DNA of 64,000 bases from Anaerotruncus massiliensis (ex Togo et al. 2026) (lineage in GTDB: Bacteria > Bacillota > Clostridia > Oscillospirales > Ruminococcaceae): the NCBI RefSeq assembly GCF_900199635.1, contig NZ_LT962687.1:1101501-1165500 (forward strand). The letters run 5' to 3'. Numbering within the stretch: position 1 is the first letter of the stretch; each line of letters opens with the position of its first letter. The notes below the pieces were generated by a model. That model worked only from the letters and a program-made list of their open reading frames with translations. It was not told the DNA's origin and ran no database searches. A program made the position numbers and the translations under genes. Below are positions 3,860-48,523 of the stretch, one piece after another.

Positions 3860-5264
3860 GCTTGATCGCCTCGAGGGCGGAAATCTTCATCGCGCGGTTG
3901 GCGGGCAGGATGCCGGAGATCAGGCCGATGAGGGTGGCGAAGAGGATCGCCGCCACGACGAGCCACGGCGGGATGAGGGAGACCTGCGCGGCGGCCTGCT
4001 CGCCGCCGCCCCCGTAGTAGCCCATATAGCGCATCGACATGCCGCTGTTGTCCCCGCCGAAGGAGAAGTTGAAGTAGTTCATCAAAAAGGAGATGAAATA
4101 GCTGAGGATGACGCCGATGATGCCGCCGACAAAGCCGATGACCCCGGCTTCCATCAGGAAGACGGAGCGGATGTTCTTGACCTTGCAGCCGAGCACCTTC
4201 ATGACGCCGATTTCGCGGGTCCGCTCATAGATCGACATGATCATCGTGTTGGTGATGCCGATAGCCGCGACGAGCAGGGAGATGCCGCCCAGTCCGCCCA
4301 GGAACATCTGCTGCTGGCGGGCCTGCTCCTGCATCGGCTTGCGCACGTCCTCGGCCGAGTTCGTCTCGAAGCCCATCGCCTTGATGGCCTCCTGAACCGG
4401 CTCGACGTCCTCCATCGTGGCGACCTTGACGGTGACGTTGCTGTAGCCCTTGTTGTTGCGGGTGCTGGTCTTGATCTTGTTGACGCGGTTGTATTCCGCC
4501 TCGAGCCACTTGATGTCCTCGATGTCCATGATGATGCCCTGCGAGGTCTCCCAACCCTTGTCGTAGTCCTGCTTGACCCGCCCGACCGGCTTGATCTCGC
4601 GGGAGAACTGGGTGCTGTCGGGATCGTCCTCGTCCTGCTTGTTGCTGCGCAGGATGAGCTCGTCGTTCATGATGTCGACGAACGGCTTCTGCTTGAGCTC
4701 GCCGTTCTCGTCCGTCTCGGGCCAGCGGTAGTTGTCAAACTTTTTCTTGTTGTCCTGGAAGCTGTAGCCGGTGTATTCGCCGACCACCACATAGATCGGC
4801 TTTTTCTTTTCGGTCTGCGGCCCCGTGGGATATTCCCCCTCGAGCAGCGTGTAGCCCATTTTGGGCATGGCTTTGGCATACATGCCGGTGATGTCCCACA
4901 GCTCCATCTGGTAGCGGTCGTCCTTGCCCGCATAGATGCGCGCCTGGAGGCCGGGGGAATAGATGGGGGTCGCGACCTCGACGCCGGGGAGGTTCTGCAT
5001 CTGCTCGACCGCCTTGTCGTCCATGACGGCGGCGTCGCCCTCGCCCATCCCGCTGTAGCGGTAGTTGTAGACGCTGATGGTGGTGAGGCGGCTGCCCATC
5101 TGCGCGAGGGTGTTTTCGAGTTGGAGGTTCATGCCGAGGCCGAGGGAGATCATGACGACGATCGCGCAGGTGCCGACCACCACGCCGACCACGGTGAGGA
5201 TGGAACGCATCTTTCGGCGGAAGAGATTTCCAAAGCACATGGAAATCATATCAGATATCTTCAT
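3852..5264 (-). CDS. ABC transporter permease, MacB/FtsX family
   Basis: A 470-residue membrane protein with the MacB layout. It has a first membrane segment after a basic start (about 21-44, ILTVVGVVVGTCAIVVMISLG), a large extracytoplasmic domain (about 45-310), and then three membrane segments toward the C-terminus. The cytoplasmic motif YERTREIGVMKVLGC, typical of FtsX permeases, lies between them. Such permeases work with a LolD/MacB ATPase as mechanotransmitters or exporters. It overlaps the preceding exported-protein gene by 14 nt. The substrate is unknown; export of a peptide, antibiotic or lipoprotein is possible. Confidence 0.85.
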   Translation of the reverse strand: MKISDMISMCFGNLFRRKMRSILTVVGVVVGTCAIVVMISLGLGMNLQLENTLAQMGSRLTTISVYNYRYSGMGEGDAAVMDDKAVEQMQNLPGVEVATPIYSPGLQARIYAGKDDRYQMELWDITGMYAKAMPKMGYTLLEGEYPTGPQTEKKKPIYVVVGEYTGYSFQDNKKKFDNYRWPETDENGELKQKPFVDIMNDELILRSNKQDEDDPDSTQFSREIKPVGRVKQDYDKGWETSQGIIMDIEDIKWLEAEYNRVNKIKTSTRNNKGYSNVTVKVATMEDVEPVQEAIKAMGFETNSAEDVRKPMQEQARQQQMFLGGLGGISLLVAAIGITNTMIMSIYERTREIGVMKVLGCKVKNIRSVFLMEAGVIGFVGGIIGVILSYFISFLMNYFNFSFGGDNSGMSMRYMGYYGGGGEQAAAQVSLIPPWLVVAAILFATLIGLISGILPANRAMKISALEAIKHE

Positions 5265-6855
5265 CGTCGTCCTCCAGGAAGGCCTCGTCCTCCTTACGGC
5301 GCGCGAGCATGAGCCTGATCAGGAAGGCCGCGAAGATCATGAGCACCACGCCGCCGACCATCCAGCCCCAGACGGGAATCGTCTGGTACCAGGGCGTCTC
5401 CTCGGGGACCTCGTCCATCGGGTTCATCGCGTCCATGCCGTCGTCGGAGGGCATCGAGAAGGAGATCGCGGTCGTCGTGAAGGGCTCGCGGATCTCGGTG
5501 ACGTGCATGTTCGCGTCCTCGTAGGTGATGATGATCTCGCCCTTGACCTCGCCGCCCTCCAGGGCGCCGAGCTGGAAATCGGCGGAATCCTCCTTGCCGG
5601 CCTCGATGTTGCCGATGAACTGGCGCTGGCCGGGCTGGGCGATGTTGCCGGCGATTTCGGCGGAGACGTTGTAGATGGGGGATTTCCCCTTGTTGACAAA
5701 GGAGACCTCGATGCTCGTGTCGTCCCCGACATAGAGTTCGGAGGGGACCTCGACGGGGTTGAGGGTGAAGCGGTCGAGCTGGGTGACGGGGATGCTGATC
5801 TCCTGCTCGGAGGTCAGCTGCTTGCGCGCCTCGTCGATGACCGCCTCATAGGCAAAGTCGAGCTTGATCGCGTGAGAGATCGGTTCCGCGCCCGGCTTGA
5901 CCGACAGCGCGATCGTGCGCTCGATCGACGACTCGCGCGACATCTTTTCAAGGTAGATGGTGTTGGAGGAGCCCTTGAGGGTGAACGCCTCGGGCACCGT
6001 GATCTTGATGACGATGTTGTCGATCGGGAGCTTTTTGCTCGTGTTGGTAAAACGCAGTTTGAGGGAGAAGTCGCTGGCCGCGGCCACGCTCGCGCCGCCG
6101 TAGTCGAACTCCGACACGATCAGCGTCGGAGTGGGCGGCGCGATATCCGGGCGGCTGGAGGAGTCGTCGTCATCGTCGTCGTTCTTGTTGTGTTCCCGCT
6201 CGCTCGAGGGGGATTTCACCTTGAGCTCGTTGAGCTCCTTGCTGAAATCGGTCATGCCGATGCCCCATTCGGGCGGGTAGGAGACGGAGAGGCGCAGGGT
6301 CTTGCTCTCGCCAGTGTATGTAATATCTGGATAGGTAATGGTATAGTAGACGCCCTTCTCGTTCGAGCTGGAACCCACAAAGAAATCAGGGTGGTCGCCC
6401 GGCAGATTGTTGATGCGAAAGACGTCCGTGTTGATCGAAAAGGCGAAGAAGTCATAGGGGTCCTTTCCGGCGACCAACGCGTCATACTGATCGTGGGTGA
6501 AACGGGTGTCGACCACGGTAATGACCATCTTGGCATGGTCACCGTTGGTGAGCTGGGTCAGGCGCTTGCCGTCCCTGAGAAACTGCACGCCCTGGATGTT
6601 GTAAGCATCCGATGTGGGGTCGGTCTTGTCGTCGCTGTTGCTTCCATCGCCGTCACGGGGCGTCACGTTCAGCACCGCGTCGGGTTCCTCCTTCGGCGCC
6701 TGGGATTCCACCTGCGTGGTGGTGCCGGCGGTATCGCCCTCCTCTGCGTAGACGGTCGTGCCCCGGAAAAGCGTGGCAAAGGAGATGCCCGCCGCCGAAA
6801 AGAGGAAGATCACGGCGAGCACGAGGGAGATCACGCGGCTGGAAAGATGGTTCAT
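5251..6855 (-). CDS. Exported membrane-anchored protein with CARDB/NEW3-like Ig-type domains
   Basis: A 534-residue protein with an N-terminal signal peptide (about 8-37), a long extracytoplasmic part, one C-terminal membrane segment (about 490-515, WGWMVGGVVLMIFAAFLIRLML) and a short acidic cytoplasmic tail. The stretch GDDTSIEVSFVNKGKSPIYN and similar segments read like beta-rich CARDB/NEW3 domains, common in COG1361-type S-layer-like proteins. A low-complexity patch of Asp and Ser (NDDDDDDSSS) separates two halves. It sits between ATPase and permease in the operon and overlaps the ATPase gene by 4 nt, so it probably acts as the extracellular partner of this transporter. The function is inferred from context only. 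Confidence 0.7.
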   Translation of the reverse strand: MNHLSSRVISLVLAVIFLFSAAGISFATLFRGTTVYAEEGDTAGTTTQVESQAPKEEPDAVLNVTPRDGDGSNSDDKTDPTSDAYNIQGVQFLRDGKRLTQLTNGDHAKMVITVVDTRFTHDQYDALVAGKDPYDFFAFSINTDVFRINNLPGDHPDFFVGSSSNEKGVYYTITYPDITYTGESKTLRLSVSYPPEWGIGMTDFSKELNELKVKSPSSEREHNKNDDDDDDSSSRPDIAPPTPTLIVSEFDYGGASVAAASDFSLKLRFTNTSKKLPIDNIVIKITVPEAFTLKGSSNTIYLEKMSRESSIERTIALSVKPGAEPISHAIKLDFAYEAVIDEARKQLTSEQEISIPVTQLDRFTLNPVEVPSELYVGDDTSIEVSFVNKGKSPIYNVSAEIAGNIAQPGQRQFIGNIEAGKEDSADFQLGALEGGEVKGEIIITYEDANMHVTEIREPFTTTAISFSMPSDDGMDAMNPMDEVPEETPWYQTIPVWGWMVGGVVLMIFAAFLIRLMLARRKEDEAFLEDDDEDI

Positions 6856-7787
6856 ATCGGCAGTTCTCCTTTTTCTTCTTCAGCGGCCGCCGGGGCGGGC
6901 GGCGGAGCACAGGGCGCGTCCCCGTCGTCCGGAAGGATCAGCGGCTCGTCGTCGGGCGGCAGGGGGAGCTCCTCCTCGGCCGGGATGGGCCCTTCCGGGA
7001 GCTTTGGCTCCTCGGGAAGCACCGATTCGGGCGGCAGGGAATCCGCGTCGGTGGTCCCGTCGTAGATCGGCGTATGGGTGACGTCCGAGGTGATCGCGCC
7101 GTCGATCAGGGTGATGACCCGGTCGGCGTAGTCGGCGATCTCGGGGTCGTGGGTAACGATGATGAGCGTCTGCTGGTACCGGCGAGCGAACCGGACCATC
7201 ATGCGCATGACGTCGATGGTCGTCCGGGTGTCGAGGTTGCCGGTCGGCTCGTCCGCGAAAACCACCTTCGGCCGCGAGACGAACGCGCGCGCGATGCCCA
7301 CGCGCTGCTGCTGGCCGCCCGACATCTGGGTGGGCTTGTGGTGGGCGCGCTTTTTGAGCCCCACCGCGGCGAGCATCGCCATCGACGCCTTGTTGCGCTT
7401 CGATTTGGAGACCCCCTTGAAGATCATCGGCAGGGAGACGTTTTCGAGCGCGGTCATGGTTGGCAGGAGGTTATAGGACTGGAAGACAAAGCCCAAAAAC
7501 CGCTGCCGGAAGATCGCGAGCTGGTTTTCCGACAGGCGGGAAATGTTGGTCTTTCCAATATATACCGAGCCGCGGGTAGGCTTTTCAAGCCCCGCGAGCT
7601 GGTTGAGCAGGGTGGATTTACCGGAACCGGAGGTCCCGACGATGCAGACGACCTGCCCCTTTAAAATTTCCAGGTTGATGTCCGCGAGGGCGACGACTTT
7701 TTCATCGCCGATGCGGTAGACCTTGCGCAGATGGCGCACGCTGATCATGGGTTTCGGGCCGTTTTTGGCCTGCGCGGCGGTTTCCAA
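6852..7787 (-). CDS. ABC transporter ATP-binding protein (MacB/LolD type) with acidic C-terminal tail
   Basis: A 311-residue ATPase. Walker A is GTSGSGKST, signature MSGGQQQRVGIARAF, Walker B VVFADEPTGNLD, and the switch histidine is in IIVTHD. The last 70 or so residues are an unusual Pro/Glu/Asp-rich extension beyond the normal length of about 230. The start is placed at TTG 7787 because GGAAGGGGGTGG lies 7 nt upstream; the frame continues to 7817 without a ribosome site. It is the first gene of a four-gene operon (ATPase, exported protein, permease, small anchored protein) in which each gene overlaps the next. Confidence 0.88.
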   Translation of the reverse strand: METAAQAKNGPKPMISVRHLRKVYRIGDEKVVALADINLEILKGQVVCIVGTSGSGKSTLLNQLAGLEKPTRGSVYIGKTNISRLSENQLAIFRQRFLGFVFQSYNLLPTMTALENVSLPMIFKGVSKSKRNKASMAMLAAVGLKKRAHHKPTQMSGGQQQRVGIARAFVSRPKVVFADEPTGNLDTRTTIDVMRMMVRFARRYQQTLIIVTHDPEIADYADRVITLIDGAITSDVTHTPIYDGTTDADSLPPESVLPEEPKLPEGPIPAEEELPLPPDDEPLILPDDGDAPCAPPPAPAAAEEEKGELPI

Positions 7788-37377: not shown

Positions 37378-38892
37378 TTAGACGCTGCGCACCATCCGTT
37401 CGTAGGTGCCGCGTTCCTCGATCGTTTCCCTGGAGGCGGCGACCGCGCCGTTGGCGACCGGCGCGCCCTTTTGCAGGGCTTCGAAGTCGGAGCGTTTGAT
37501 GAGGTAGCCGGTCACGCGGATCACGTCGCTCTCCGACTCGTAGGTGGAGATATACTGCATGCCGACCCGGAAGGCCCCCTTGAAGACGTCGAGCACGGCG
37601 GCGGGGTTTTGGAGCGCGGTCCGGTCGAAGGGGAAGATGTCGCCGATCCCCGACGGGAAGAAGCGGTGGAACATCCCCGCCTGCCGCAGGTGGTCGTAGA
37701 GGGGGATTTCGCTGCCGATCGCGAGGCGCACGCCGGGGGTGACGCCGTTGTCGCCGACGGCGCCGACCTGCGCGTGCAGCAGGAAGCGGTGCCCGTTGAT
37801 CTCGCAGTATTTGCTCTGGAAGGCGTTCACCTGCCGTTCGATCGCCTCGACGATCCGCAGGCCGAGCCGGTTGGCCTCCTCGTCCGGACCGTAGCGGCCC
37901 GGCCTGCCGCAGAGGTCCATCAGGGTGTTGACGCACTCGTTCATGCCGACCAGCCCGAACAGCCCGACGAAGCGTTCCCGCTCCAGGAACCCCTCCTTGA
38001 CAAGAAAATTCGTCCGGAAGAAGGGGATCTCCTCGGCGATAAAGCGGATTTTCGCCTCCATGAACCGGCAGGCGGCGTCCACTGCCTCGGGCAGGCGCAC
38101 GGAAAAGAATTCGTCGAGGCTGCGGCACCGTTCGGCGATCCGGCAGAGCCGCATGCGCGAGAGGGAGTAGGCCCCGCCGCCGACATAGAGGCCGTTGTAG
38201 CAGCTTGCGATTCCATACCGTTCCCCGATGCGGGAACGGTAATAGGGGTCATGGGCAAACGCGGGGTTCGCGCACTTCAGCGCGCTGGAGACGCATTTGA
38301 CCGCGAATTCGTCGGGCGTGACCGCGGGGTCGTAGAGCAGCGTGAGATTGGGGACGGCGTTTTGCAGCTCGGGAAGCAGCTCAACGACCAGCTCCCCCGT
38401 GACGGTGGCTTCGGGGCCGATGTTGGCGTGGCAGAAGCTGTCGCTCACCGTCCGGTCGAGCGCCGTCAAAAAGAGGCGCAGCATGCCGCGCGCCTCATCG
38501 CGCGGGACCTCCCGGACGAACGGCTCGAGCATCCGGTCGATCCGCCCGATGTATACGGGATAATGGGTCACCGACGGGACATGGGAATAGAAGATCATCA
38601 GCGAGGCGAGCGCCTCCGCCAGCGTTCCGGGCGGCGGGAGGCGGAGGAACGCGCAGCCCCGCTCCATAAACCGTTCGTAGTCGGGGAGGATGTAGCGGGG
38701 GCAGAGGGGGGCGTGCCCGTCGTTGTGGTCGCAGAGAATCTCCTCCTCCACGAGCCGCTGGAAGTTGTCCGGCACGCCCGCCGGGTAGCCGCAGAGGTTT
38801 TCCGCGAACTCCGCCAGGGAAAAAACCGTCTGCATGTGCGTCTTGGTGGGGTCCTTGATGATCTCCAGGACCTGCCGCTGGATCGATTCCAT
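37378..38892 (-). CDS. YjjI family glycyl radical enzyme
   Basis: A 504-residue protein of the YjjI (DUF3029) group, shorter than pyruvate formate-lyase. The C-terminus carries the glycyl radical motif RVTGY in a context VIRVTGYLIKRSDF (about 457-470). A candidate thiyl-radical cysteine is in GIASCYNGLYVGGG (about 228). The reaction of this family is not established to my knowledge. In enterobacteria yjjI is followed by yjjW, a radical SAM activase; no such gene lies next to this copy. It is divergent from a Crp/Fnr regulator, with a shared palindrome between them. Confidence 0.85.
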   Translation of the reverse strand: MESIQRQVLEIIKDPTKTHMQTVFSLAEFAENLCGYPAGVPDNFQRLVEEEILCDHNDGHAPLCPRYILPDYERFMERGCAFLRLPPPGTLAEALASLMIFYSHVPSVTHYPVYIGRIDRMLEPFVREVPRDEARGMLRLFLTALDRTVSDSFCHANIGPEATVTGELVVELLPELQNAVPNLTLLYDPAVTPDEFAVKCVSSALKCANPAFAHDPYYRSRIGERYGIASCYNGLYVGGGAYSLSRMRLCRIAERCRSLDEFFSVRLPEAVDAACRFMEAKIRFIAEEIPFFRTNFLVKEGFLERERFVGLFGLVGMNECVNTLMDLCGRPGRYGPDEEANRLGLRIVEAIERQVNAFQSKYCEINGHRFLLHAQVGAVGDNGVTPGVRLAIGSEIPLYDHLRQAGMFHRFFPSGIGDIFPFDRTALQNPAAVLDVFKGAFRVGMQYISTYESESDVIRVTGYLIKRSDFEALQKGAPVANGAVAASRETIEERGTYERMVRSV

Positions 38893-39770: not shown

Positions 39771-40721
39771 TCAGCCGAGAAGCTGGGCTTCGAGGCGGTC
39801 CCAGTTGAGGGAGATCATCGAGGGAGCGATCACGCCGCGCTCGGTGATGAGCCCGGTGATCTGGTGCGAGGGGGTCAGGTCGAAGAACTGGTTGATGACC
39901 TCGATCCCTTCCATGCTGTCGAAATCGCCGGGGGAGACGATCTCCGCGGGGGTGCGGCGCTCGAGCACGATCGGGTGCCCCTGCGCGGTGCGGCGGTCGA
40001 GCTTATAGATTTCGCTGGCGATGTAGACCGGCTTCTTGCAGGAGAGCGCGAGCTGGGAGATCAGCGCGGTGCCCATCTTGTTGGCGACCGAACCGTCCCA
40101 TGCGATGGTGTCCGCCCCCATGATGATGAGGTCGCAGGCGGGCATGAACTCCCAGATGGAGGCGTCGGTGACATAGGTGACGGGGACATGCAGCTCCTGG
40201 AGGATCTTTGCCGCGACACGGGATTCACGCAGGGGCCGGGACTCGGTGCAGATCAGGCTGAACCGTTTCCCCTGCTTGGCGGCCGCGGTAAAGACGCTCA
40301 TCAGGGCGCTCGAATAGCTGTGCATCATGACCGTGCAGCCGTCCTGGATCAGGTTGGCCCCGTTCTCCCCGAGGTGGTCGACGGCGCTGAGGGAATATTG
40401 AATGATCCGCTGGCAGAGCGCCGCGATCTCGCCGGTGATGGTGGAAATCTCCGTGCCGGCGGGGAAGGAGTCGAGCTTTTTATAGACGAGGGACTTGGAG
40501 TTATAGATGGTGGCCATCGTGGGCTTGAGGCTGAGCAGCTCGCTCGAAATATAGTCGAACCGTTCCCTGAGCGCGGCCACGTCCGCGAATTCCTCCTGGG
40601 TGCAGGCGAGGCGGTAGGCCCACGCGGCGGCGCGCCCGAACGGGCTGCCGCCCTTGACGTTCATATTGCGCACCTCGTCGATGACGTGCTGTGCCGATTG
40701 GAATTGGATGTCCTGTAACAT
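39771..40721 (-). CDS. eIF2B-alpha/MtnA-like sugar-phosphate isomerase (ribose-1,5-bisphosphate isomerase-like)
   Basis: A 316-residue protein of the eIF2B alpha/beta/delta-related superfamily, which in prokaryotes includes methylthioribose-1-phosphate isomerase and ribose-1,5-bisphosphate isomerase. Typical segments are GGSPFGRAAAWAYRLAC, IQDGCTVMMHSYSSALMSVFTAAAKQGKRFSLICTESRP and the catalytic-region CDLIIMGADTIAWDGSVANKMGT. AAAGGAG is 8 nt before the ATG. It lies 30 nt after the PurM-like gene, in one operon divergent from a nucleoside transporter. It probably converts a ribose phosphate from nucleoside breakdown (inference). Confidence 0.75.
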   Translation of the reverse strand: MLQDIQFQSAQHVIDEVRNMNVKGGSPFGRAAAWAYRLACTQEEFADVAALRERFDYISSELLSLKPTMATIYNSKSLVYKKLDSFPAGTEISTITGEIAALCQRIIQYSLSAVDHLGENGANLIQDGCTVMMHSYSSALMSVFTAAAKQGKRFSLICTESRPLRESRVAAKILQELHVPVTYVTDASIWEFMPACDLIIMGADTIAWDGSVANKMGTALISQLALSCKKPVYIASEIYKLDRRTAQGHPIVLERRTPAEIVSPGDFDSMEGIEVINQFFDLTPSHQITGLITERGVIAPSMISLNWDRLEAQLLG

Positions 40722-40750
40722 GGTGATCGCTCCTTTATTAATATGGTATC

Positions 40751-41578
40751 TTATTGAATCCGGCCGATGAAAAAGCAGGGGATGTCCAGTTCCGCGGCGA
40801 GCGCCGCGCCCGATTCCTCCGGCAGGCTGACCAGCACGGCGGTGCAGGAGCCGGCGGAGGTCTTAAGGTCGACGGGAGGCTGCTCGACGGGCAGGAACCG
40901 CCGGCCGACACATTCCGCGAGCTGGCCCGCCTCATACAGGACGCCCTTCGAGCCGACAGGGAGGATCTCGTGGACGAAATCCAGCTCCCGCAGCTTCGCC
41001 ACGGTGGAGATTTTGGCGACGGTGCCGTCGCGTTCGCTGTAATGCTCGATGATCCCGCTCTGCGGGACGCCGGCGCAGTAGACCGCGTCGCCCGAACGGG
41101 TGCGGCCGAGCCGGAGGGCGGCGTCGCTCACGAGCCCGACGACGGTGACGCCGATGCCCGTCTGGAGGGTGCGCATGTTGTCCTCGGTGCTGCCGGTGAA
41201 CTGGATGCTGTCCAGCAGCCCGCAGCGGTCCAGCTCCTCCTGCATGGCGGAGATGATTTTCCGTCCGCTCGGCTCCATCTCCACGCAGAGATTGTCCGCA
41301 ATGACGATGGGGGTGGCGCCGGTGGCGAGCACCTCCATGGTGGGGACCTTCAGCGCGCTGACCGCGGTCTCGTCATAGGTGTTGCGGTGGGTGTCGTTCG
41401 GCTTTTCCCCGTTGGAGGCGTTGGAATCGCAGGCGACGACAAGGCTCACTTCCCCCAGCAGCCGGAGGATGGAGAGGTCCCGGTATTTGCGGATCCGGGA
41501 GGAAAAGCTGTGCCTGCGGGTCATCTCCAATAGCTCTTCATATTCATTCCAGATGGTCTCGGGCGTGAAAGCATCCAT
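40751..41578 (-). CDS. PurM/ThiL-superfamily protein, alpha-ribazole kinase (CblS)-like; putative nucleoside kinase
   Basis: A 275-residue protein of the AIR synthase-related superfamily. The pattern VVACDSNASNGEKPND, YDETAVSALKVPTMEVLATGATPIVIADNLCVEMEPSGRKIISAMQEEL and FTGSTEDNMRTLQTGIGVTVVG resembles the CblS group, which phosphorylates the nucleoside alpha-ribazole. That comparison is from memory and needs a search. ATG 41578 has AGAGGG 8 nt upstream; the frame opens at 41623. In this locus a role as kinase for an imported nucleoside such as pseudouridine is plausible, as no PfkB-type PsuK is present. Confidence 0.6.
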   Translation of the reverse strand: MDAFTPETIWNEYEELLEMTRRHSFSSRIRKYRDLSILRLLGEVSLVVACDSNASNGEKPNDTHRNTYDETAVSALKVPTMEVLATGATPIVIADNLCVEMEPSGRKIISAMQEELDRCGLLDSIQFTGSTEDNMRTLQTGIGVTVVGLVSDAALRLGRTRSGDAVYCAGVPQSGIIEHYSERDGTVAKISTVAKLRELDFVHEILPVGSKGVLYEAGQLAECVGRRFLPVEQPPVDLKTSAGSCTAVLVSLPEESGAALAAELDIPCFFIGRIQ

Positions 41579-41624
41579 AAGGAATCCCTCTTTTCCAGAC
41601 TTGATGGATTCACTATAACACAAG

Positions 41625-41653
41625 ATGATATAGTTGTATAGATGTTTTTACAA
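41625..41653 (-). promoter_or_regulatory. Promoter and operator motif (site A) of the PurM-like/eIF2B-like operon
   Basis: On the minus strand: -35 TTGTAA (41653-41648), 17-bp spacer, -10 TATCAT (41630-41625). The motif AGTTGTATAGATGTTT (41632-41647, plus-strand reading) fills the spacer exactly, a classic repressor position. The same motif recurs upstream of three other units nearby. Confidence 0.6.
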
Positions 41654-41816
41654 TTTTTACGATTTGCACAGATTTCACCCGGAAATTTCTCCATGGGGGC
41701 TGGGCGTTTTGCATAAAGCGCCGCAATCCAGCATGAAATGCGAGAAAACGCGGGCATTTGATGGGGGAAAGAGGCTCATTCTGCATAATAAAATTGAAAA
41801 TTGAAAAAGAAAACTA

Positions 41817-41870
41817 TTGACAATTACGGAGAGCGCATGCTACCCTTATGCCATAAACATATAGACAACT
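41817..41870 (+). promoter_or_regulatory. Promoter and operator motif (site B) of the nucleoside ABC transporter operon
   Basis: -35 TTGACA (41817-41822), 18-bp spacer, -10 TACCCT (41841-41846). AAACATATAGACAACT (41855-41870) is the reverse complement of AGTTGTCTATATGTTT, 14 of 16 identical to site A. It begins at about the transcription start. The rest of the divergent region (41579-41935) is AT-rich and holds no gene. Confidence 0.55.
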
Positions 41871-41935
41871 AAATCTATAAAACACTAAATCTTTCCACTG
41901 AACAACCAGGCGGTTGCACCGAAGGAGGTTATCGG

Positions 41936-43468
41936 ATGGCTCCTGTCGTAAGGATGGAATCCATTACAAAACGCTTTGGGGCGCTCGTGGCGAACGACCG
42001 GATCGACTTTTCGCTGGAGGCCGGCGAGACGCACGCCCTCGTCGGGGAAAACGGCGCGGGCAAGACGACGCTGATGCGGATCCTTTACGGACAGTACGCG
42101 CCGGACGCGGGCAAGATCCTGATCAACGGGGAACCCTGTTCCTACCACGTCTCGGGCGCGCTTAAGCACGGGATCGGCATGGTGCACCAGAACTTCATGC
42201 AGATCGACCATATGAGCATCACCGAGAACATCATCCTCGGCCACGCGCCCACCCGGGCGGACTTCATCGATTACCGGGCGGCCAAGGAGAAGATCCGCGG
42301 GCTGCTCGCGCGCTTCGGCATGCAGAAGATCTCCCCCGACACGCCGATCGGGAACCTCTGCGTGGGGGAGCGCCAGAAGATCGAGATCATCAAGGCGCTC
42401 TATCTGGGCGCGCGGGTGCTCATCCTCGACGAGCCGACGGCGGTGCTGACGCCGCAGGAGTCGGACGAGCTCTTCAGCGTCATCGACGAGCTCAAAAAGG
42501 ACGGCACCTCCATCGTTTTCATCTCCCACAAGCTGCGGGAGGTCATCCGGGTGGCGGACCGTATCACCGTCATGCGCAAGGGGCGGGTCGTGGCGCATTT
42601 CAAGCGCGGGGAGGCCTCCGAGACCGACGTGGCGCGCGCGATGATCGGCAAGCAGGACGTCCAGCTGATCCAGAACAGCGAGCGGGGCGAGGTGGGCGAG
42701 CCGGTCTGCGTCTGCAAGAACCTCTGGTATATCGACGGAAACGGCATCCCGCGCATCCGGGACCTCACCTTTGCGGTGCGCCGCGGGGAAATCCTCGGCG
42801 TGGGCGGCGTGGAAGGGAACGGGCAGACGGAACTCATCAACCTGCTGATCGGGATGTTCCGCCTCTCGGGCGGCAGCATCCTGCTGGATGGCGAGGACGT
42901 CACCCGCCTGCCGATCCGCCAGCGGCGGGCCAAGGGGGTCGGCTATATCTCGGAGGACCGGATGACGACGGGGCTGGCGCTGCAGGCGAACGCGGACGAG
43001 AATCTCATCTGCGGGGTCGCGGGACAGCCGCCCTTCAGCAGGCGCGGGATTCTGCGCGGCAGGGCGATCGCGGAAAACACGGCGGAGATGGTCCGCAAGT
43101 TCGACATCCGCGGCCTCACGCAGGACAAGCCCGTCCGGTCTCTCTCGGGCGGCAATATGCAGAAGATCGTACTGGCGCGGGAGATCAGCCGGAACCCCAA
43201 GCTGCTGATCGCGGCGCAGCCGACCCGCGGGCTCGACATCGGCGCGATCAACTTCGTGCGGGAGCACCTGCTCGAACAGAAGCGGCGCGGGACGGCGATC
43301 CTGCTCGTCTCCGCCGACCTCGAGGAGCTGATGAGCCTGAGCGACCGCATGATTATCCTCTACGAGGGGCGCTGCTCGGGCGAGGTGACCGACATCCCCT
43401 CGGCGACCGAGGCGGAGATCGGGCTGATGATGGGCGGTATTACAAGCTCGGAAAGGGAGGCAAACTGA
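41936..43468 (+). CDS. BMP-family nucleoside/sugar ABC transporter, double ATPase
   Basis: A 510-residue protein with two ABC domains, as in RbsA/NupB-type importers. The first has Walker A GENGAGKTT and Walker B VLILDEPTAVLTPQE. The second has a degenerate Walker A (GGVEGNGQTELI), signature LSGGNMQK and RNPKLLIAAQPTRGLD. This one-good, one-degenerate pattern is normal for the family. A GGAGG lies 8 nt before the ATG. It is the first gene of a four-gene operon with two permeases and a BmpA-like lipoprotein, most likely importing nucleosides. Confidence 0.9.
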   Translation: MAPVVRMESITKRFGALVANDRIDFSLEAGETHALVGENGAGKTTLMRILYGQYAPDAGKILINGEPCSYHVSGALKHGIGMVHQNFMQIDHMSITENIILGHAPTRADFIDYRAAKEKIRGLLARFGMQKISPDTPIGNLCVGERQKIEIIKALYLGARVLILDEPTAVLTPQESDELFSVIDELKKDGTSIVFISHKLREVIRVADRITVMRKGRVVAHFKRGEASETDVARAMIGKQDVQLIQNSERGEVGEPVCVCKNLWYIDGNGIPRIRDLTFAVRRGEILGVGGVEGNGQTELINLLIGMFRLSGGSILLDGEDVTRLPIRQRRAKGVGYISEDRMTTGLALQANADENLICGVAGQPPFSRRGILRGRAIAENTAEMVRKFDIRGLTQDKPVRSLSGGNMQKIVLAREISRNPKLLIAAQPTRGLDIGAINFVREHLLEQKRRGTAILLVSADLEELMSLSDRMIILYEGRCSGEVTDIPSATEAEIGLMMGGITSSEREAN

Positions 43469-43469
43469 G

Positions 43470-44525
43470 ATGGGAGAGAATGTCATGGAACGGAAGCTCC
43501 CGGAGGTTTCCTTGAAGAAGCTGCTGGGCGGCCTGTCCCCGGTGGTTGCGGTGCTGATCGCGTTCGCAGTCGCGGGGCTGGTCGTGCTGGCTTCGGGCGG
43601 CAACCCGCTCGAGGCGTACCGGGCGCTGGCCAAGGGCGCGCTGGGAAGCTGGGTCGGCGTCAAGAACACCATCCGTTACACCCTGCCGATCATCCTGCTG
43701 GCCTTTTCCTTTTCGATCTGCAACCGCTGCGGCTATTTCAACATCGGCCAGGAGGGCCAGATGTATTTCGCGGCGCTGGGCATCGCCTTCGTGCCGCAGG
43801 TCATCCCCAACGCGCCGCTCTGGGTGCAGGCCGTCGTCATGGTGGCGGCCGGGGCGCTCTTCGGAGGACTCATCTCGCTGCTGCCGGCGGTGTTCAAATT
43901 TCTGTTCGGGGTCAACGAGGTGGTCATCGCCATCCTGATGAACTATATCATCCTGCTGCTGACCGACTATCTGCTCAACAACGGGCCGATCGCGAAGGCG
44001 GACACCACCGTGCCGATGTCGGTGAACCTCGCGCCCTCCCTCAACACGACCCTGATCCTGATCGCGGTCGTCGCCATCATCATCGCCTACGCGCTCTGCA
44101 TCCGGGGGACCGTCCCGGGCTATGAGCTGCGGATGATCGGGCACAATCCGAAGTTCGCCAAGGCGTGCGGCGTCAAAACGATCCGGATCGTCCTGGTCGT
44201 CGCGCTGCTGGGCGGCGTCTTTTCGGGGCTGACCGCCGCGGGCGAGGTCATGGGCGTCTACCACAAGGTCTACAACAATTTTGCGGTGGACATGGGCTTC
44301 AACGGCATGACCGCCGCGCTCATCGGCAAGGATTCGACGCTCGGCATCATCTTCGGCTCGCTCATCCTCGGCGCCCTGCAGAGCGGCGCGGTGACGCTGT
44401 CGGTCGAGACGAGCGTCCAGGCGGAGATGGTCCAGGTGGTCAAGGGCTTCGTCATGCTCTTCGCCACCATCAACATCCTGCGGTACCTGCTCCAGAGCAG
44501 GCGGAAGGAGGGGAAGACGGCATGA
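43470..44525 (+). CDS. ABC transporter permease (NupP/BmpC-like, branched-chain permease superfamily)
   Basis: A 351-residue integral membrane protein of the BPD_transp_2 family. NRCGYFNIGQEGQMYFAALG and FGVNEVVIAILMNYIILLLTDYLL are typical of the first permease of nucleoside ABC importers. So is the EAA-like loop GHNPKFAKACGVKTIRI. GGGAGG lies 8 nt upstream of the ATG. It overlaps the second permease gene by 4 nt. Confidence 0.9.
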   Translation: MGENVMERKLPEVSLKKLLGGLSPVVAVLIAFAVAGLVVLASGGNPLEAYRALAKGALGSWVGVKNTIRYTLPIILLAFSFSICNRCGYFNIGQEGQMYFAALGIAFVPQVIPNAPLWVQAVVMVAAGALFGGLISLLPAVFKFLFGVNEVVIAILMNYIILLLTDYLLNNGPIAKADTTVPMSVNLAPSLNTTLILIAVVAIIIAYALCIRGTVPGYELRMIGHNPKFAKACGVKTIRIVLVVALLGGVFSGLTAAGEVMGVYHKVYNNFAVDMGFNGMTAALIGKDSTLGIIFGSLILGALQSGAVTLSVETSVQAEMVQVVKGFVMLFATINILRYLLQSRRKEGKTA

Positions 44526-45481
44526 TCAATGTGGAACAGCTGTTGAACCTGTCGGTCCGGCTGGCTGCGCCGGTCATCCTCATCTGTCTGGGCGGCCTCT
44601 TCTCCATCAAGGTGGATATCTTCAACCTCGCGCTCGAGGGCTTCACCCTCTTTGGGTGCTTCGCCGCCGTGGTCGGGACCTATATGACGCAGAGCGTTAT
44701 GGGCGGCATCCTCTTCGCCGTCCTGCTGACGCTGCTTGTCGCGCTGGTCTACGCGCTCTTCGTCTTTGAATTGGATGTCGACCCGATCATCTGCGCGCTG
44801 GCGTGTACGACGATCGCCACCGGCCTGACGCGGTACCTGCTCGTCCCGATCTTCGGCGCGAGCGGGCGGTTCATCCTGCCGTCCGAGCTCGCGCTGCCGA
44901 CCATCCACTTTGCCTTCCTCGAAAAAATCCCGCTGATCGGGCCGGTCCTGAACGACCACTCGGTCCTCGTCTATCTGGCGCTCCTCCTGCCGTTCGCGGT
45001 CCACGTCTTCCTCTACCGGACGAACATGGGCCTGTCGGTGCGCGCGATCGGGAAAAACGCCGACGCGGCCCTCTCGGCGGGCATCGGCATCAAGCGCATC
45101 CGCTATTTCGCGCTCGCTCTAAACGGCGTCTTCTGCGGGCTGGCGGGCGCGCAGCTCGCGCTTTCCCTCAACATGTTCAACGTCGGGATGACCGACGGGC
45201 GCGGCTTTACGGCGATCGCGGTGCTTGTGCTCACAGGGGCGGAGCCGGTGCTTTCGCTGCTGGCCTGCCTGATGTTCGGATTCTCCGACGCGCTGGTGCT
45301 GACCCTTTCGGGCAGGGGCTATCCGGTGCAGATCCTCTCGATGCTGCCCTATGTGCTCGCGCTGATCGTGGTCATCGCGCCGCTGCTCATCAAGAGCCTT
45401 GTCAAATGGCTGCGGAAGCGCTCCGCGGAAAAGAAGCTGATTGTTATGGGGTCCGACGTTACCGCCGGAGACCGTCAATAA
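44522..45481 (+). CDS. ABC transporter permease (NupQ-like)
   Basis: A 319-residue membrane protein, partner of the preceding permease. LFSIKVDIFNLALEGFTLFGCF near the start matches the second permease of BMP-type importers. So do DPIICALACTTIATGLTRYLL and the cytoplasmic loop GLSVRAIGKNADAALSAGIGIKRIRYFAL. It starts in the upstream stop (ATGA). Confidence 0.9.
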   Translation: MINVEQLLNLSVRLAAPVILICLGGLFSIKVDIFNLALEGFTLFGCFAAVVGTYMTQSVMGGILFAVLLTLLVALVYALFVFELDVDPIICALACTTIATGLTRYLLVPIFGASGRFILPSELALPTIHFAFLEKIPLIGPVLNDHSVLVYLALLLPFAVHVFLYRTNMGLSVRAIGKNADAALSAGIGIKRIRYFALALNGVFCGLAGAQLALSLNMFNVGMTDGRGFTAIAVLVLTGAEPVLSLLACLMFGFSDALVLTLSGRGYPVQILSMLPYVLALIVVIAPLLIKSLVKWLRKRSAEKKLIVMGSDVTAGDRQ

Positions 45482-45504
45482 ATCAATTCAAAGGAGAACG
45501 GAAA

Positions 45505-46584
45505 ATGAAAAAGTCTGTAAAGATCCTTGCTCTCGCAATGGCGCTGGTTCTTGTCGCGGCGGCGTTTACCGCCTGCGGCGGCCAAAAGGCGCCGGAGACC
45601 TCCGCCCCGGCCGCTCCCGCGGAAGACGCTTCCGCCCCCGCGCCCGGCGATGGGGACGCCGCGGAAAAGAGCTACAAGGTGGCGCTCGTCTCCGACATGG
45701 CCGTCGACGAGGCGGAATGGCTTCAGAACCTGGTTGCCGGCCTCGGCGACTACCAGACCGAGCATCCGAACATCGAGGTGAAGGTGGTCGAAGCCACCCA
45801 GTCGAGCGAATACGAGCCCAAGACCCGCGCGCTGGCGCAGGCGGGCTACAACATCATCATCACCACCAACTCCAGCATGGCCGACGCGACGACCGCCGTG
45901 GCCGCGGATTTCCCGGACATCCTCTTCGGCAGCCTGGACGGCGTGATCTCGGACATCGCGGACTATCCCAACCTGCAGGAATTCGGCCTGAACCGCACCG
46001 AGACCGGATACCTTGCCGGCGTGGCGGCCGCCTGCGCGACCAAGGCGAATAAGGTCGGCATCGTGGCGGGCGCGGACGAGCCGGTCATCAACGCGATCGT
46101 CGCCGGCTGGCAGCAGGGCATGCGCAGCGTCAACCCCGACATCGAGGACATGGTCGCCTATGCGAACACCTGGACCGACCCGACCAAGGGCAAGGAGCTC
46201 GGCCTCATGCTCGTCAACGAGGGCTGCGACGTGATCGCGGCCGCGGCGGGCGGCACCGGCGTCGGCGGCGCGCAGGCCGCGGCGGAAAAGGGCGTCTACT
46301 TTGTCGCGTGGGACGTGCACTATCAGGACGTGCTGGGAGACCTGGAGCTGGGCAGCGCGGTCAACTTCTTTGACAAGATGGTCATCCAGTTCATCGAGGA
46401 CGCGATCTCCGGCAATTTCCAGGGCGGCAAGCGCGTCGATTACGGCATCTCCGAAGGCGTCTGCACCTTTGAATATCTGGACAACTCCCCCCTGAGCGAC
46501 GAGGCGAAGGAGAAGATCAAGGCGGCCTACGACGATATCATCGCGGGCAAAATCGACATCTCCACCGAGCCGCTGCACAAGTAA
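45505..46584 (+). CDS. BMP family substrate-binding lipoprotein (nucleoside binding)
   Basis: A 359-residue lipoprotein, lipobox FTACG (signal about 1-24), then an Ala/Pro-rich linker and a periplasmic-binding fold of the Bmp/Med/PnrA family. Visible family segments are YKVALVSDMAVDEAEWLQNLVAGL, IIITTNSSMADATTAVAADFPDILFGSLD and GLNRTETGYLAGVAA. PnrA-type members bind nucleosides (established). AAAGGAG is 8 nt upstream. High expression relative to the rest of the operon is usual for such proteins. Confidence 0.9.
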   Translation: MKKSVKILALAMALVLVAAAFTACGGQKAPETSAPAAPAEDASAPAPGDGDAAEKSYKVALVSDMAVDEAEWLQNLVAGLGDYQTEHPNIEVKVVEATQSSEYEPKTRALAQAGYNIIITTNSSMADATTAVAADFPDILFGSLDGVISDIADYPNLQEFGLNRTETGYLAGVAAACATKANKVGIVAGADEPVINAIVAGWQQGMRSVNPDIEDMVAYANTWTDPTKGKELGLMLVNEGCDVIAAAAGGTGVGGAQAAAEKGVYFVAWDVHYQDVLGDLELGSAVNFFDKMVIQFIEDAISGNFQGGKRVDYGISEGVCTFEYLDNSPLSDEAKEKIKAAYDDIIAGKIDISTEPLHK

Positions 46585-46602
46585 GCGGAAGAGAGAAGCG
46601 CG

Positions 46603-46630
46603 AACCCTCCGGGGGATTCCCCGGAGGGTT
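46603..46630 (+). terminator. Terminator of the nucleoside transporter operon
   Basis: AACCCTCCGGGG / CCCCGGAGGGTT with a 4-nt loop; the T run is poor. Confidence 0.65.
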
Positions 46631-46663
46631 TCGCGGAAAACCGGCGGCGCGCGGCGGCCGCCG

Positions 46664-46730
46664 AATTGGTTGACACAACCAATTGGAATGTGTATTATGA
46701 AAACAGGAAGAGACATACATACAGACGTTT
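46664..46730 (+). promoter_or_regulatory. gntR promoter with perfect 9-3-9 palindrome and operator motif (site D)
   Basis: -35 TTGACA (46670-46675), 17-bp spacer, -10 TATTAT (46693-46698). Arms AATTGGTTG (46664-46672) and CAACCAATT (46676-46684) form a perfect palindrome centred on ACA over the -35. Downstream, ATACATACAGACGTTT (46715-46730) matches the motif of sites A-C in reverse orientation at 11 of 16 positions. Confidence 0.6.
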
Positions 46731-46772
46731 GATTAAATGGAGCTCGCATGACTCCGGAATTCGGGTGAAGAG

Positions 46773-47507
46773 ATGAGTGCGCTGAAGAGGGTCGCCGGGG
46801 TTTCCCTGTACCACCAGATCATGGAAGACCTTCGCGAAGAGATCCAGGGAATGGCCTATGGGGAACAGATTGAAACGGAGCAGCAGCTCGCGGAAAAGTA
46901 CGCCGTGAGCCGGGGCACCGTCCGTCAGGCGATCACCGCGCTGGTGAGCGAGGGCCTGCTGACCAAGATCCAGGGGAAGGGGACCTTCAAGAGCGGCGTC
47001 GCGCTCGACCGCTCGACCGCGGTCGTCAAGAGCTTCACGGACCAGCTGCTGGCTTCGGGGCTCGTGCCGGGAATCCGCGACGTGAACCTCGAATCCGATT
47101 TTGCGGACGAGCGGACGGCGAAACATTTGGGGCTCGCGCCCGGCACGCCGATCTGGCGGCTCTCCCGCGTGAGGCTGGCGGACGGGGTGCCGATCTCCTA
47201 CTGTACGGCGTACATCAACCCGGCCTACGCGACGGGCCTCTGCGCGGGCGACCTTGAGATGTCGCTGATCGCGATGTTTACCGAAAAGCTCGGCGTCCCG
47301 CTCCAGCATGGGGAGAGCTTTGTGACTGCGACGCTGGCCAGCGAGGAGCTGGCGCAGCGGCTGGGCGTCAGCACCTCCACCCCCATCCTGCGCCTGGAGC
47401 ATGTCGGCTTCCTGGCGTCGGGGGACCCGGTGTTTTTCGACGTCACCGACTCGATCGGCGAGCGGTACGTCATGCAGATCGAACAGGGCTCCTACGGCAG
47501 GGGCTGA
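46773..47507 (+). CDS. GntR family transcriptional regulator, HutC subfamily (UTRA domain)
   Basis: A 244-residue regulator. The winged helix is at about 10-78 (LYHQIMEDLREEIQGMAYGEQIETEQQLAEKYAVSRGTVRQAITALVSEGLL...QGKGTF) and the UTRA effector domain at about 90-240. HutC-type regulators respond to small sugar phosphates or nucleoside-like ligands. It sits between the nucleoside transporter and psuG and is the natural candidate for binding the shared motif. Repression relieved by a nucleoside metabolite is inferred. Confidence 0.9.
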   Translation: MSALKRVAGVSLYHQIMEDLREEIQGMAYGEQIETEQQLAEKYAVSRGTVRQAITALVSEGLLTKIQGKGTFKSGVALDRSTAVVKSFTDQLLASGLVPGIRDVNLESDFADERTAKHLGLAPGTPIWRLSRVRLADGVPISYCTAYINPAYATGLCAGDLEMSLIAMFTEKLGVPLQHGESFVTATLASEELAQRLGVSTSTPILRLEHVGFLASGDPVFFDVTDSIGERYVMQIEQGSYGRG

Positions 47508-47554
47508 GGGATCCCGGTCGACCCGGGGTCCCGGAAAAATCGAAATAATGATCT

Positions 47555-47570
47555 AGATGTCTATATGATA
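47555..47570 (+). promoter_or_regulatory. Operator motif (site C) upstream of psuG
   Basis: AGATGTCTATATGATA, 13 of 16 identical to site B. It overlaps a TATGAT that could be the -10 of psuG. Confidence 0.5.
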
Positions 47571-47608
47571 TTGGCCAAGATAAAATGAATCGTGGAGGTA
47601 TGACTGCA

Positions 47609-48523
47609 ATGAACCTGGAAAGATATTTGGATATCACGCCCGAAATCGCGCGGGCCGTAAGCGAAAACCGTCCGGTGGTGGCGCTCGAATCCACCATCCT
47701 CAGCCACGGCATGCCCTATCCGCAGAATCTGGAATTCGCGCACAAGGTGGAGGAGATCATCCGCGCCGAGGGCGCGGTCCCCGCCACCACGGCGATCCTC
47801 GGCGGAAAGCTCAAGGTGGGGCTGACGGCGGACGAGCTCGAGCGGATGTGCAAGCCGGGCGACATCGGCAAGGTGAGCCGCCGGGATGTGGCGGTCTATC
47901 TGGCGCAGAAGCGGGACGGCGCGACGACGGTCGCCACGACGATGCTGATCGCCTCGCTGGCGGGGATCCGCATCTTCGCGACCGGGGGGATCGGCGGCGT
48001 GCACCGCGGCGCGCAGGAGACCTTCGACATCTCGGCGGACCTCCAGGAGCTCGCGAACACGCCGGTCGGCGTGGTCTGCGCGGGGGCGAAGAGCCTGCTC
48101 GACCTCGGCCTCACGCTGGAATACCTCGAGACGTACGGCGTGCCGGTGCTGGGGGTGCGCACGGAGGATTTCCCGGCCTTTTACTGCCGCAGCAGCGGCC
48201 TGAAGGTGGATTACCGGATCGACACCGAGGCGGAGATCGCCGGCATCCTCCGCACCAAATGGGAGCTGGGGCTCAAGGGGGGCGCGGTCATCGCGAACCC
48301 GATCCCGGAGGAGTACGCGCTCGACTACGACGAGATGGAGCGGGTGATCACCAAAGCGCTCGACATGGCGAAGGAGCAGGGCGTCCATGGAAAGGCGACG
48401 ACCCCCTTCCTGCTGGCTGCGATCAAGGACATGACCCACGGCGTGTCGCTGGCGAGCAACCTGGAGCTCGCCTACAACAACGCGCGCGTGGCGGCGCGGA
48501 TCGCCGTCGCGTACTGCAAATAA
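47609..48523 (+). CDS. psuG: Pseudouridine-5'-phosphate glycosidase PsuG
   Basis: A 304-residue enzyme that splits pseudouridine 5'-phosphate into uracil and ribose 5-phosphate (C-C bond). The family hallmarks are present: PVVALESTILSHGMPYPQN, VPATTAILGGKLKVGL, KVSRRDVAVYLAQKRDGATTVATTM, FATGGIGGVHRGA and a catalytic lysine region. ATG 47609 has GGAGG 10 nt upstream; ATG 47585 and 47600 are badly placed. Its normal partner PsuK is missing here, while a nucleoside importer and a PurM-like putative kinase are next door. Confidence 0.93.
   Translation: MNLERYLDITPEIARAVSENRPVVALESTILSHGMPYPQNLEFAHKVEEIIRAEGAVPATTAILGGKLKVGLTADELERMCKPGDIGKVSRRDVAVYLAQKRDGATTVATTMLIASLAGIRIFATGGIGGVHRGAQETFDISADLQELANTPVGVVCAGAKSLLDLGLTLEYLETYGVPVLGVRTEDFPAFYCRSSGLKVDYRIDTEAEIAGILRTKWELGLKGGAVIANPIPEEYALDYDEMERVITKALDMAKEQGVHGKATTPFLLAAIKDMTHGVSLASNLELAYNNARVAARIAVAYCK

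Follow-up and report, generated by a model that had tools for sequence, protein, structure and literature searches.

A candidate riboside-salvage locus in Anaerotruncus with a CblS-lineage PurM-fold protein and the pseudouridine-5'-phosphate glycosidase PsuG

Gene content of the locus

The stretch of DNA analysed here (the window, 64,000 nucleotides of a 3.15 Mb genome of the genus Anaerotruncus) contains, between positions 39771 and 48523, eight genes in which a PurM-superfamily protein and an eIF2B-like protein occur together with an ATP-binding cassette (ABC) importer, a regulator and the pseudouridine-5'-phosphate glycosidase PsuG. The original prediction for this locus, in which the PurM-like protein was proposed to act as a nucleoside kinase in place of PsuK, is borne out with regard to gene content and families, since all eight genes are intact open reading frames with the corresponding Pfam matches. 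They form two divergent units, with the purM-like and eIF2B-like genes on the minus strand and the genes from the ABC ATPase to psuG on the plus strand:

39771..40721, minus: eIF2B/ribose-1,5-bisphosphate-isomerase-like protein (Pfam IF-2B, 192.8 bits; MMHSYS, with Ser for the catalytic Cys; GADT, with the Asp kept)
40751..41578, minus: member of the PurM superfamily in the CblS lineage (DSNAS clade), a proposed riboside 5'-kinase (Pfam AIRS, 20.9 bits; fold search; trees)
41625..41647, plus: candidate operator copy that overlaps a promoter-like purM site on the minus strand (41653-41625) (second-best matrix score; promoter scan)
41855..41877, minus: candidate operator copy in the divergent promoter region, on the side of the ABC genes (top matrix score of the window)
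41936..43468, plus: double ATPase of a BMP-type (nucleoside-type) ABC importer (Pfam ABC_tran, two stretches)
43470..44525, plus: ABC permease 1 (Pfam BPD_transp_2)
44522..45481, plus: ABC permease 2 (Pfam BPD_transp_2)
45505..46584, plus: BMP-family substrate-binding lipoprotein (Pfam Bmp, 189.2 bits)
46773..47507, plus: GntR/UTRA (HutC-type) regulator, proposed operator binder (Pfam UTRA and GntR)
47548..47570, plus: candidate operator copy that overlaps the promoter-like site of psuG (TCGAAA-18-TATGAT, 47540-47569) (third-best matrix score; promoter scan)
47585..48523, plus: PsuG, pseudouridine-5'-phosphate glycosidase (Pfam Indigoidine_A, 439.8 bits; residue map)

The absence of a PfkB-type kinase from the locus also held up, as none of the 15 PfkB matches of the genome lies inside the window, and Pfam PfkB does not match the PurM-like protein itself. 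The window PsuG is 56% identical to that of E. coli and keeps all six of the residues that we take to be the key ones (E31, K93, H137, D149, K166 and N289 in E. coli numbering).

Kinship of the PurM-like protein with CblS

In the window protein only the N-terminal domain of Pfam AIRS is matched, at 20.9 bits and thus under the 24-bit cut-off, while a homologue in G369 (a genome from the same phylum but only distantly related) scores 28.5 bits, over the cut-off. An AlphaFold model built from four sequences (mean predicted local distance difference test score 81.8) gave ThiL (E 6e-13), AIR synthetase, SelD (selenophosphate synthetase) and HypE as the best solved matches in Foldseek (E about 1e-12), with template modelling scores of only about 0.5-0.66. 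The G369 homologue and the predicted fold together uphold the weak Pfam call, and on this model the protein can be placed in the PurM superfamily. A phmmer search of PDB sequences returned nothing at E up to 1. The comparison with the CblS, ThiL and PurM families that had been put forward as a check therefore gives a sub-cut-off AIRS match, ThiL as the top fold match and, as described below, a place in the CblS lineage by profile and tree.

By single-sequence search, relatives of the protein were found in 6 of the 247 genomes from its taxonomic family (its own genome included). A profile search of 398 genomes from a sample of the phylum matched 97 of them, at 99 places, one of which lies in the window. 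The neighbourhoods of 60 of the 99 were examined together with seven earlier loci, and one representative of each gene cluster was checked with Pfam. The gene was called in 65 of the 67; L078 and L106, where the gene finder did not call it, were left out of the cluster counts and put back in the trees. Outside the three special groups discussed below, a CblT-like S component of an energy-coupling factor (ECF) transporter lies within six genes in 42 of 51 loci, and CobS, CobQ, CobU, CbiB or CobT in 26 of 51. A Listeria homologue, which is 34% identical to the window protein and annotated as 'hypothetical protein', lies directly before cobU, cobS and cobC. CblS is described in two published accounts as an alpha-ribazole kinase that goes with the transporter CblT (PMC6461909, PMC6167548). 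Given this context of CblT-like and cobamide genes, the Listeria cob-cluster homologue and the published description, we take the window protein to belong to the family of CblS, the match to that name being one of gene context. The CblS-like nature originally proposed is supported in this way by a common profile, by the trees and by the identity to the Listeria protein.

A separate clade and its gene neighbours

Within this family, the window protein belongs to a distinct part of the tree. In a careful tree of 64 rows, the proteins of two groups, DSNAS and DSDGG (14 rows), split from the 50 others with a support of 99/91; the DSNAS group alone is supported at 100/99, the DSDGG group alone only weakly (73/5). 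The groups are named after a motif that is itself part of the tree alignment. Two long-branched proteins with a doubled domain (L024 and L025) were left out of the careful tree, and six short or weak ones (L111, L119-L123) out of both trees; when L024 and L025 are included, the resulting 16-row grouping has a Shimodaira-Hasegawa-like approximate likelihood ratio test (SH-aLRT) support of 89.

The DSNAS loci (motif CDSNAS) are those of the window, A. colihominis, G369 and an Anaerolinea genome, and all have BMP-type ABC importers, the Anaerolinea locus lying at a contig end, where the importer is seen as ATPase and permeases. Among the eight DSDGG loci counted, a CblT-like S component is present in seven (compared to none of the four DSNAS loci), a UTRA-type regulator in six, and EcfT and ADP-ribosylglycohydrolase in five each, while the eighth locus has a BMP-type ABC importer and nucleoside hydrolases; PsuG is within six genes in none of the eight. 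A third kind of locus is formed by the doubled-domain pair, which lies beside ADP-ribosylglycohydrolases and a nucleoside hydrolase.

In none of the 14 counted loci of the three special groups was CobS, CobQ, CobU, CbiB or CobT found within six genes. Similarly, tblastn with one representative of each of these five proteins gave nothing in the stretches of the 14 clade rows (some of them only 6 kb), which overlap with the 14 counted loci in 11, while all four cobamide loci used as a control gave matches. Neither CblT nor cobamide genes were detected by tblastn in the 64-kb window or in the stretches of L021 and L026 (two strains of one species), L028 and L069. Instead, the clade stretches carry importers plus, variously, ADP-ribosylglycohydrolase, nucleoside hydrolase, an eIF2B-like protein or PsuG. 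In the phylum of the Anaerolinea genome (G1017), a DSNAS-weighted profile matched 2 of 400 genomes at 1e-20, G1017 and G1037, with one family member each.

Four loci (L070, L084, L087 and L088) combine a UTRA-type regulator, a CblT-like S component, a CblS-like kinase, an Ecf ATPase and EcfT with ADP-ribosylglycohydrolase. At the Anaerolinea locus (L028), the PurM-like kinase gene is followed at 4818-6176 by an amidohydrolase (Pfam Amidohydro_1), perhaps acting on a released base.

A shared candidate operator

A matrix for a 23-base site, built solely from three A. colihominis sites, was used to scan both strands of the 64 kb. The two sites in the divergent region rank first and second (31.1 and 29.3), and a site 14 bases before the ATG of psuG ranks third (21.4), followed by scores of 17.7 (itself in the divergent region) and 16.2. 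The score of the psuG site was not reached in any of 2000 dinucleotide shuffles of the 77 bp upstream of psuG. The window has three candidate sites, and two A. colihominis strains, whose counterparts of the GntR/UTRA regulator are 77-78% identical to that of the window, have two each; before the regulator gene itself, no operator was found among the top 12 window sites. Promoter-like pairs are also more numerous in the region than expected (5 versus 1.7), and the pair before psuG, which overlaps the operator copy, matches at 9 of 12 positions.

This looks like one GntR/UTRA repressor-operator switch that would be common to purM-eIF2B, the importer and psuG, although the pairing of this repressor with this operator is so far suggested by sequence. 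With a four-site matrix, the psuG site scores 25.2, compared to at most 12.1 in the three stretches of the genome where psuG accompanies a PfkB gene. A PsuK co-regulated with this psuG, which the original prediction had named as evidence against itself, was thus not found in these three stretches, which hold no comparable operator (the whole genome was not scanned).

Recurrence of the module and other copies of psuG

The purM-eIF2B pair recurs with this type of transporter in A. colihominis and in G369. Conservation of the neighbours is therefore not limited to this strain, and the association of these genes seems to go beyond chance. In G369 the order on the minus strand is ADP-ribosylglycohydrolase, PfkB, BMP, ABC, two permeases, PurM, eIF2B and PsuG, the last three being contiguous within the BMP-ABC cluster. 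The proposed link between the PurM-like gene and psuG accordingly finds support in the shared operator of the window and in this contiguity. Their co-occurrence holds for the window and G369 and fails for A. colihominis and Anaerolinea, where psuG is not beside the module. In two other sampled congeners, neither the PurM-like gene nor psuG was found.

The genome has five psuG genes. Apart from that of the window, two are clustered with genes for kinases of the helix-turn-helix (HTH)-PfkB type (35% identity to E. coli PsuK), a third has another PfkB gene beside it, and the fourth lies beside an apparent phosphotransferase system (PTS). The NCBIfam pseudouridine-kinase model gives 186 bits on the L018 kinase (cut-off 540) and no match on that of L139, so the label PsuK rests on context for these PfkB kinases. 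The psuG genes of A. colihominis lie away from the module, that of strain DSM 17241 beside an HTH-PfkB gene. The window PsuG shares 61% identity with the one encoded in the L017 cluster of its own genome and 43% with that of G369, which has a long branch and groups (84/94) with a PsuG from Anaerolinea. Since the window and G369 proteins share only this 43% and do not group together, PsuG may have been recruited to the module twice.

The fifth PsuG (L140, G000:C7:1834000-1848000, at 6197-7129) is 46-47% identical to that of the window and has Ser aligned at the His137 position. It lies among genes that by eye resemble a mannose-family PTS, from which phosphorylation may come there.

The eIF2B-like protein

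Among NCBIfam models, the eIF2B-like protein matches TIGR00511 (ribose-1,5-bisphosphate isomerase) best, at 217.1 bits, which is under the cut-off of 314.1, and its closest structures by sequence are solved isomerases. In the proteins of the window, A. colihominis and G369 (the latter 50% identical to that of the window), the GAD motif retains its Asp, while the catalytic Cys is replaced by Ser (MHS where PDB 3a11 has THC). PDB 3vm6, presumably an inactive mutant, differs from 3a11 at this position in the same way. Because of the lost Cys, a standard isomerase role is unlikely and was set aside, and the role in handling a ribose phosphate that had been suggested for this protein becomes doubtful. 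Our guess would be that it serves in sugar-phosphate binding, sensing or ribosyl ring opening.

At 1e-55, a profile of this protein matched only its own genome among 391 genomes of the class, and only its own genome and G369 among 398 of the phylum, which makes the purM-eIF2B pair rare; in the order of G369, 1 of 13 genomes matched at 1e-50. A plasmid search gave 118 records, and among the 25 listed the identity was at most 29.9%, with 10 annotated as S-methyl-5-thioribose-1-phosphate isomerase.

Elsewhere in the same genome, L019 (G000:C6:4000-20000) holds a BMP-type ABC importer, PfkB and an eIF2B-like protein without the Cys and with Glu for the Asp, as well as genes that by eye resemble BtpA and ADP-ribosylglycohydrolase.

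Proposed function and alternatives

The reading that we favour, and to which we give an even chance, is that of an inducible riboside-salvage module consisting of a BMP-type importer, a CblS-lineage 5'-kinase, PsuG, a common operator and an eIF2B-like partner. A riboside would bind the BMP lipoprotein and enter through the ABC importer, after which the riboside or its phosphate would release the GntR/UTRA repressor from the common operator, through which purM-eIF2B, the importer and psuG would be switched together. The PurM-fold protein would phosphorylate the 5'-OH of the riboside with ATP, and PsuG would cleave the 5'-phosphate to ribose 5-phosphate and the base, with the eIF2B-like protein most likely binding the sugar phosphate or opening the ribosyl ring. 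Pseudouridine appears to be the leading candidate for the substrate; it fits PsuG, and alpha-ribosides fit CblS.

A number of observations weigh against this reading. The purM-psuG link rests on two loci, and the A. colihominis module, despite 77-88% identity to that of the window, has no psuG beside it. The Anaerolinea locus lacks psuG as well (the one psuG of that genome is on another contig), and because psuG is missing at both loci, an importer-kinase unit can evidently exist without it. In G369, the PfkB kinase of the cluster could be the kinase. Furthermore, few training sites lie behind the operator matrix, the reading does not account for the eIF2B-like protein, and a CblS role is possible in G1017 and G1037, which have CobS without a CobT match. 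Finally, since three other psuG genes cluster with PfkB kinases, pseudouridine use in general does not depend on the PurM-like kinase. The original claim that it replaces PsuK in this organism is therefore not supported, all the more since A. colihominis has the module without adjacent psuG plus a separate HTH-PfkB/PsuG locus.

Some of these points fit better if the same kinase serves to salvage some riboside different from pseudouridine, such as an alpha-riboside or a further modified nucleoside, with psuG having joined the regulon for a by-product or a second importer substrate. Besides the two loci without psuG, the enzymes found at the eight DSDGG loci (ADP-ribosylglycohydrolase at five, nucleoside hydrolase at one, PsuG at none) agree with this, and pseudouridine is probably already served by the PfkB-PsuG loci. 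ADP-ribosylglycohydrolases and ribose-1,5-bisphosphate isomerase prefer the alpha configuration, which would fit alpha-ribosides. However, the window psuG carries the operator of the module, and in G369 psuG is contiguous with purM-eIF2B, which also weakens the view of psuG as a bystander. This alternative is possible, if on the whole unlikely.

It is improbable that the protein is simply a working CblS, i.e. that alpha-ribazole enters through the importer and is converted by the kinase to alpha-ribazole phosphate, for use in cobamide assembly. Its family membership, the presence of CobS in Anaerotruncus, and G1017 and G1037 with their single family members would agree with this. In Anaerotruncus, however, all three genomes searched, two of which belong to one species, have CobT as well, close to CobS (both are also present in G358), while G369 and G295 keep family members without a match to either, so these are unlikely to serve cobamide assembly. 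For the same reason, the CblT/CblS pair of L084, which is from G295, probably has another use. Cobamide genes are moreover missing from the clade stretches, and no Rfam riboswitch reaches the gathering threshold in the window, where a tRNA is the sole Rfam match. A plain CblS role is weakened by these results, and there is good reason to think that some members of the CblS family act outside B12 metabolism.

A ribose-1,5-bisphosphate route, with phosphorylation of ribose 1-phosphate by the PurM-like protein and conversion of ribose 1,5-bisphosphate to ribulose 1,5-bisphosphate by the eIF2B-like protein, would suit the best NCBIfam match and the closest structures of the latter. It is very improbable, considering the score under the cut-off, the Ser for the catalytic Cys in three proteins and the lack of a nucleoside phosphorylase among the ten proteins scanned here with Pfam.

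The favoured reading, of inducible riboside salvage, can be taken further, to a CblS-derived clade of PurM-fold kinases in Bacillota and Chloroflexota that left B12 assembly for riboside breakdown, in which the DSNAS proteins would be pseudouridine kinases unrelated to the PfkB-type PsuK and the Cys-less eIF2B-like partner would open the ribosyl phosphate or present it to PsuG. This extension is speculative, and rather doubtful as a whole.

Relation to known systems

Compared to CblS of Listeria innocua and Geobacillus (with CblT), the window protein is of the same PurM-superfamily family by profile and tree, which makes ATP-dependent riboside 5'-kinase chemistry likely. It differs in its separate CDSNAS clade and its locus, which is without CblT or cobamide genes and instead has a BMP-type ABC importer, an eIF2B-like protein and psuG. 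With the PsuK-PsuG system of E. coli the locus shares PsuG (56% identical, key residues kept) and the logic of import, kinase and glycosidase. PsuK is a PfkB kinase according to one published account (PMC9247573), whereas the kinase candidate here has the PurM fold and is accompanied by an extra eIF2B-like protein and a UTRA regulator. Among the titles listed by searches of an open-licence library, none was on a PurM-fold pseudouridine kinase, which is a weak negative. The eIF2B-like protein resembles ribose-1,5-bisphosphate isomerase and MtnA as a member of the IF-2B family with the conserved Asp, but differs from them in its Ser and in scoring under the family cut-offs. The double ATPase, two permeases and Bmp lipoprotein are those of BMP/PnrA-type nucleoside importers; the transporter trees show no module-specific importer clade, as the ATPases of the window, G369 and Anaerolinea modules do not fall into a single clade.

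The locus suggests that bacteria may have reused a kinase family of B12 assembly for the salvage of unusual ribosides such as pseudouridine. If so, a role in alpha-ribazole salvage for B12 could not always be read from an annotation as CblS, ribosides (perhaps pseudouridine) would be phosphorylated by enzymes of a second, unrelated fold, and modified nucleosides released in RNA turnover would have their own inducible route in a gut commensal. The locus also offers a place in which to test what an eIF2B-like protein of bacteria does without the isomerase cysteine.

Near the module, at 37378-38892 on the minus strand, lies a gene for a YjjI-family glycyl radical enzyme (600 bits, cut-off 498). 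A homologue, which was not found in the stretch of A. colihominis JM4-15, is located in A. colihominis DSM 17241 about 55 bases after the eIF2B gene, on the same strand.

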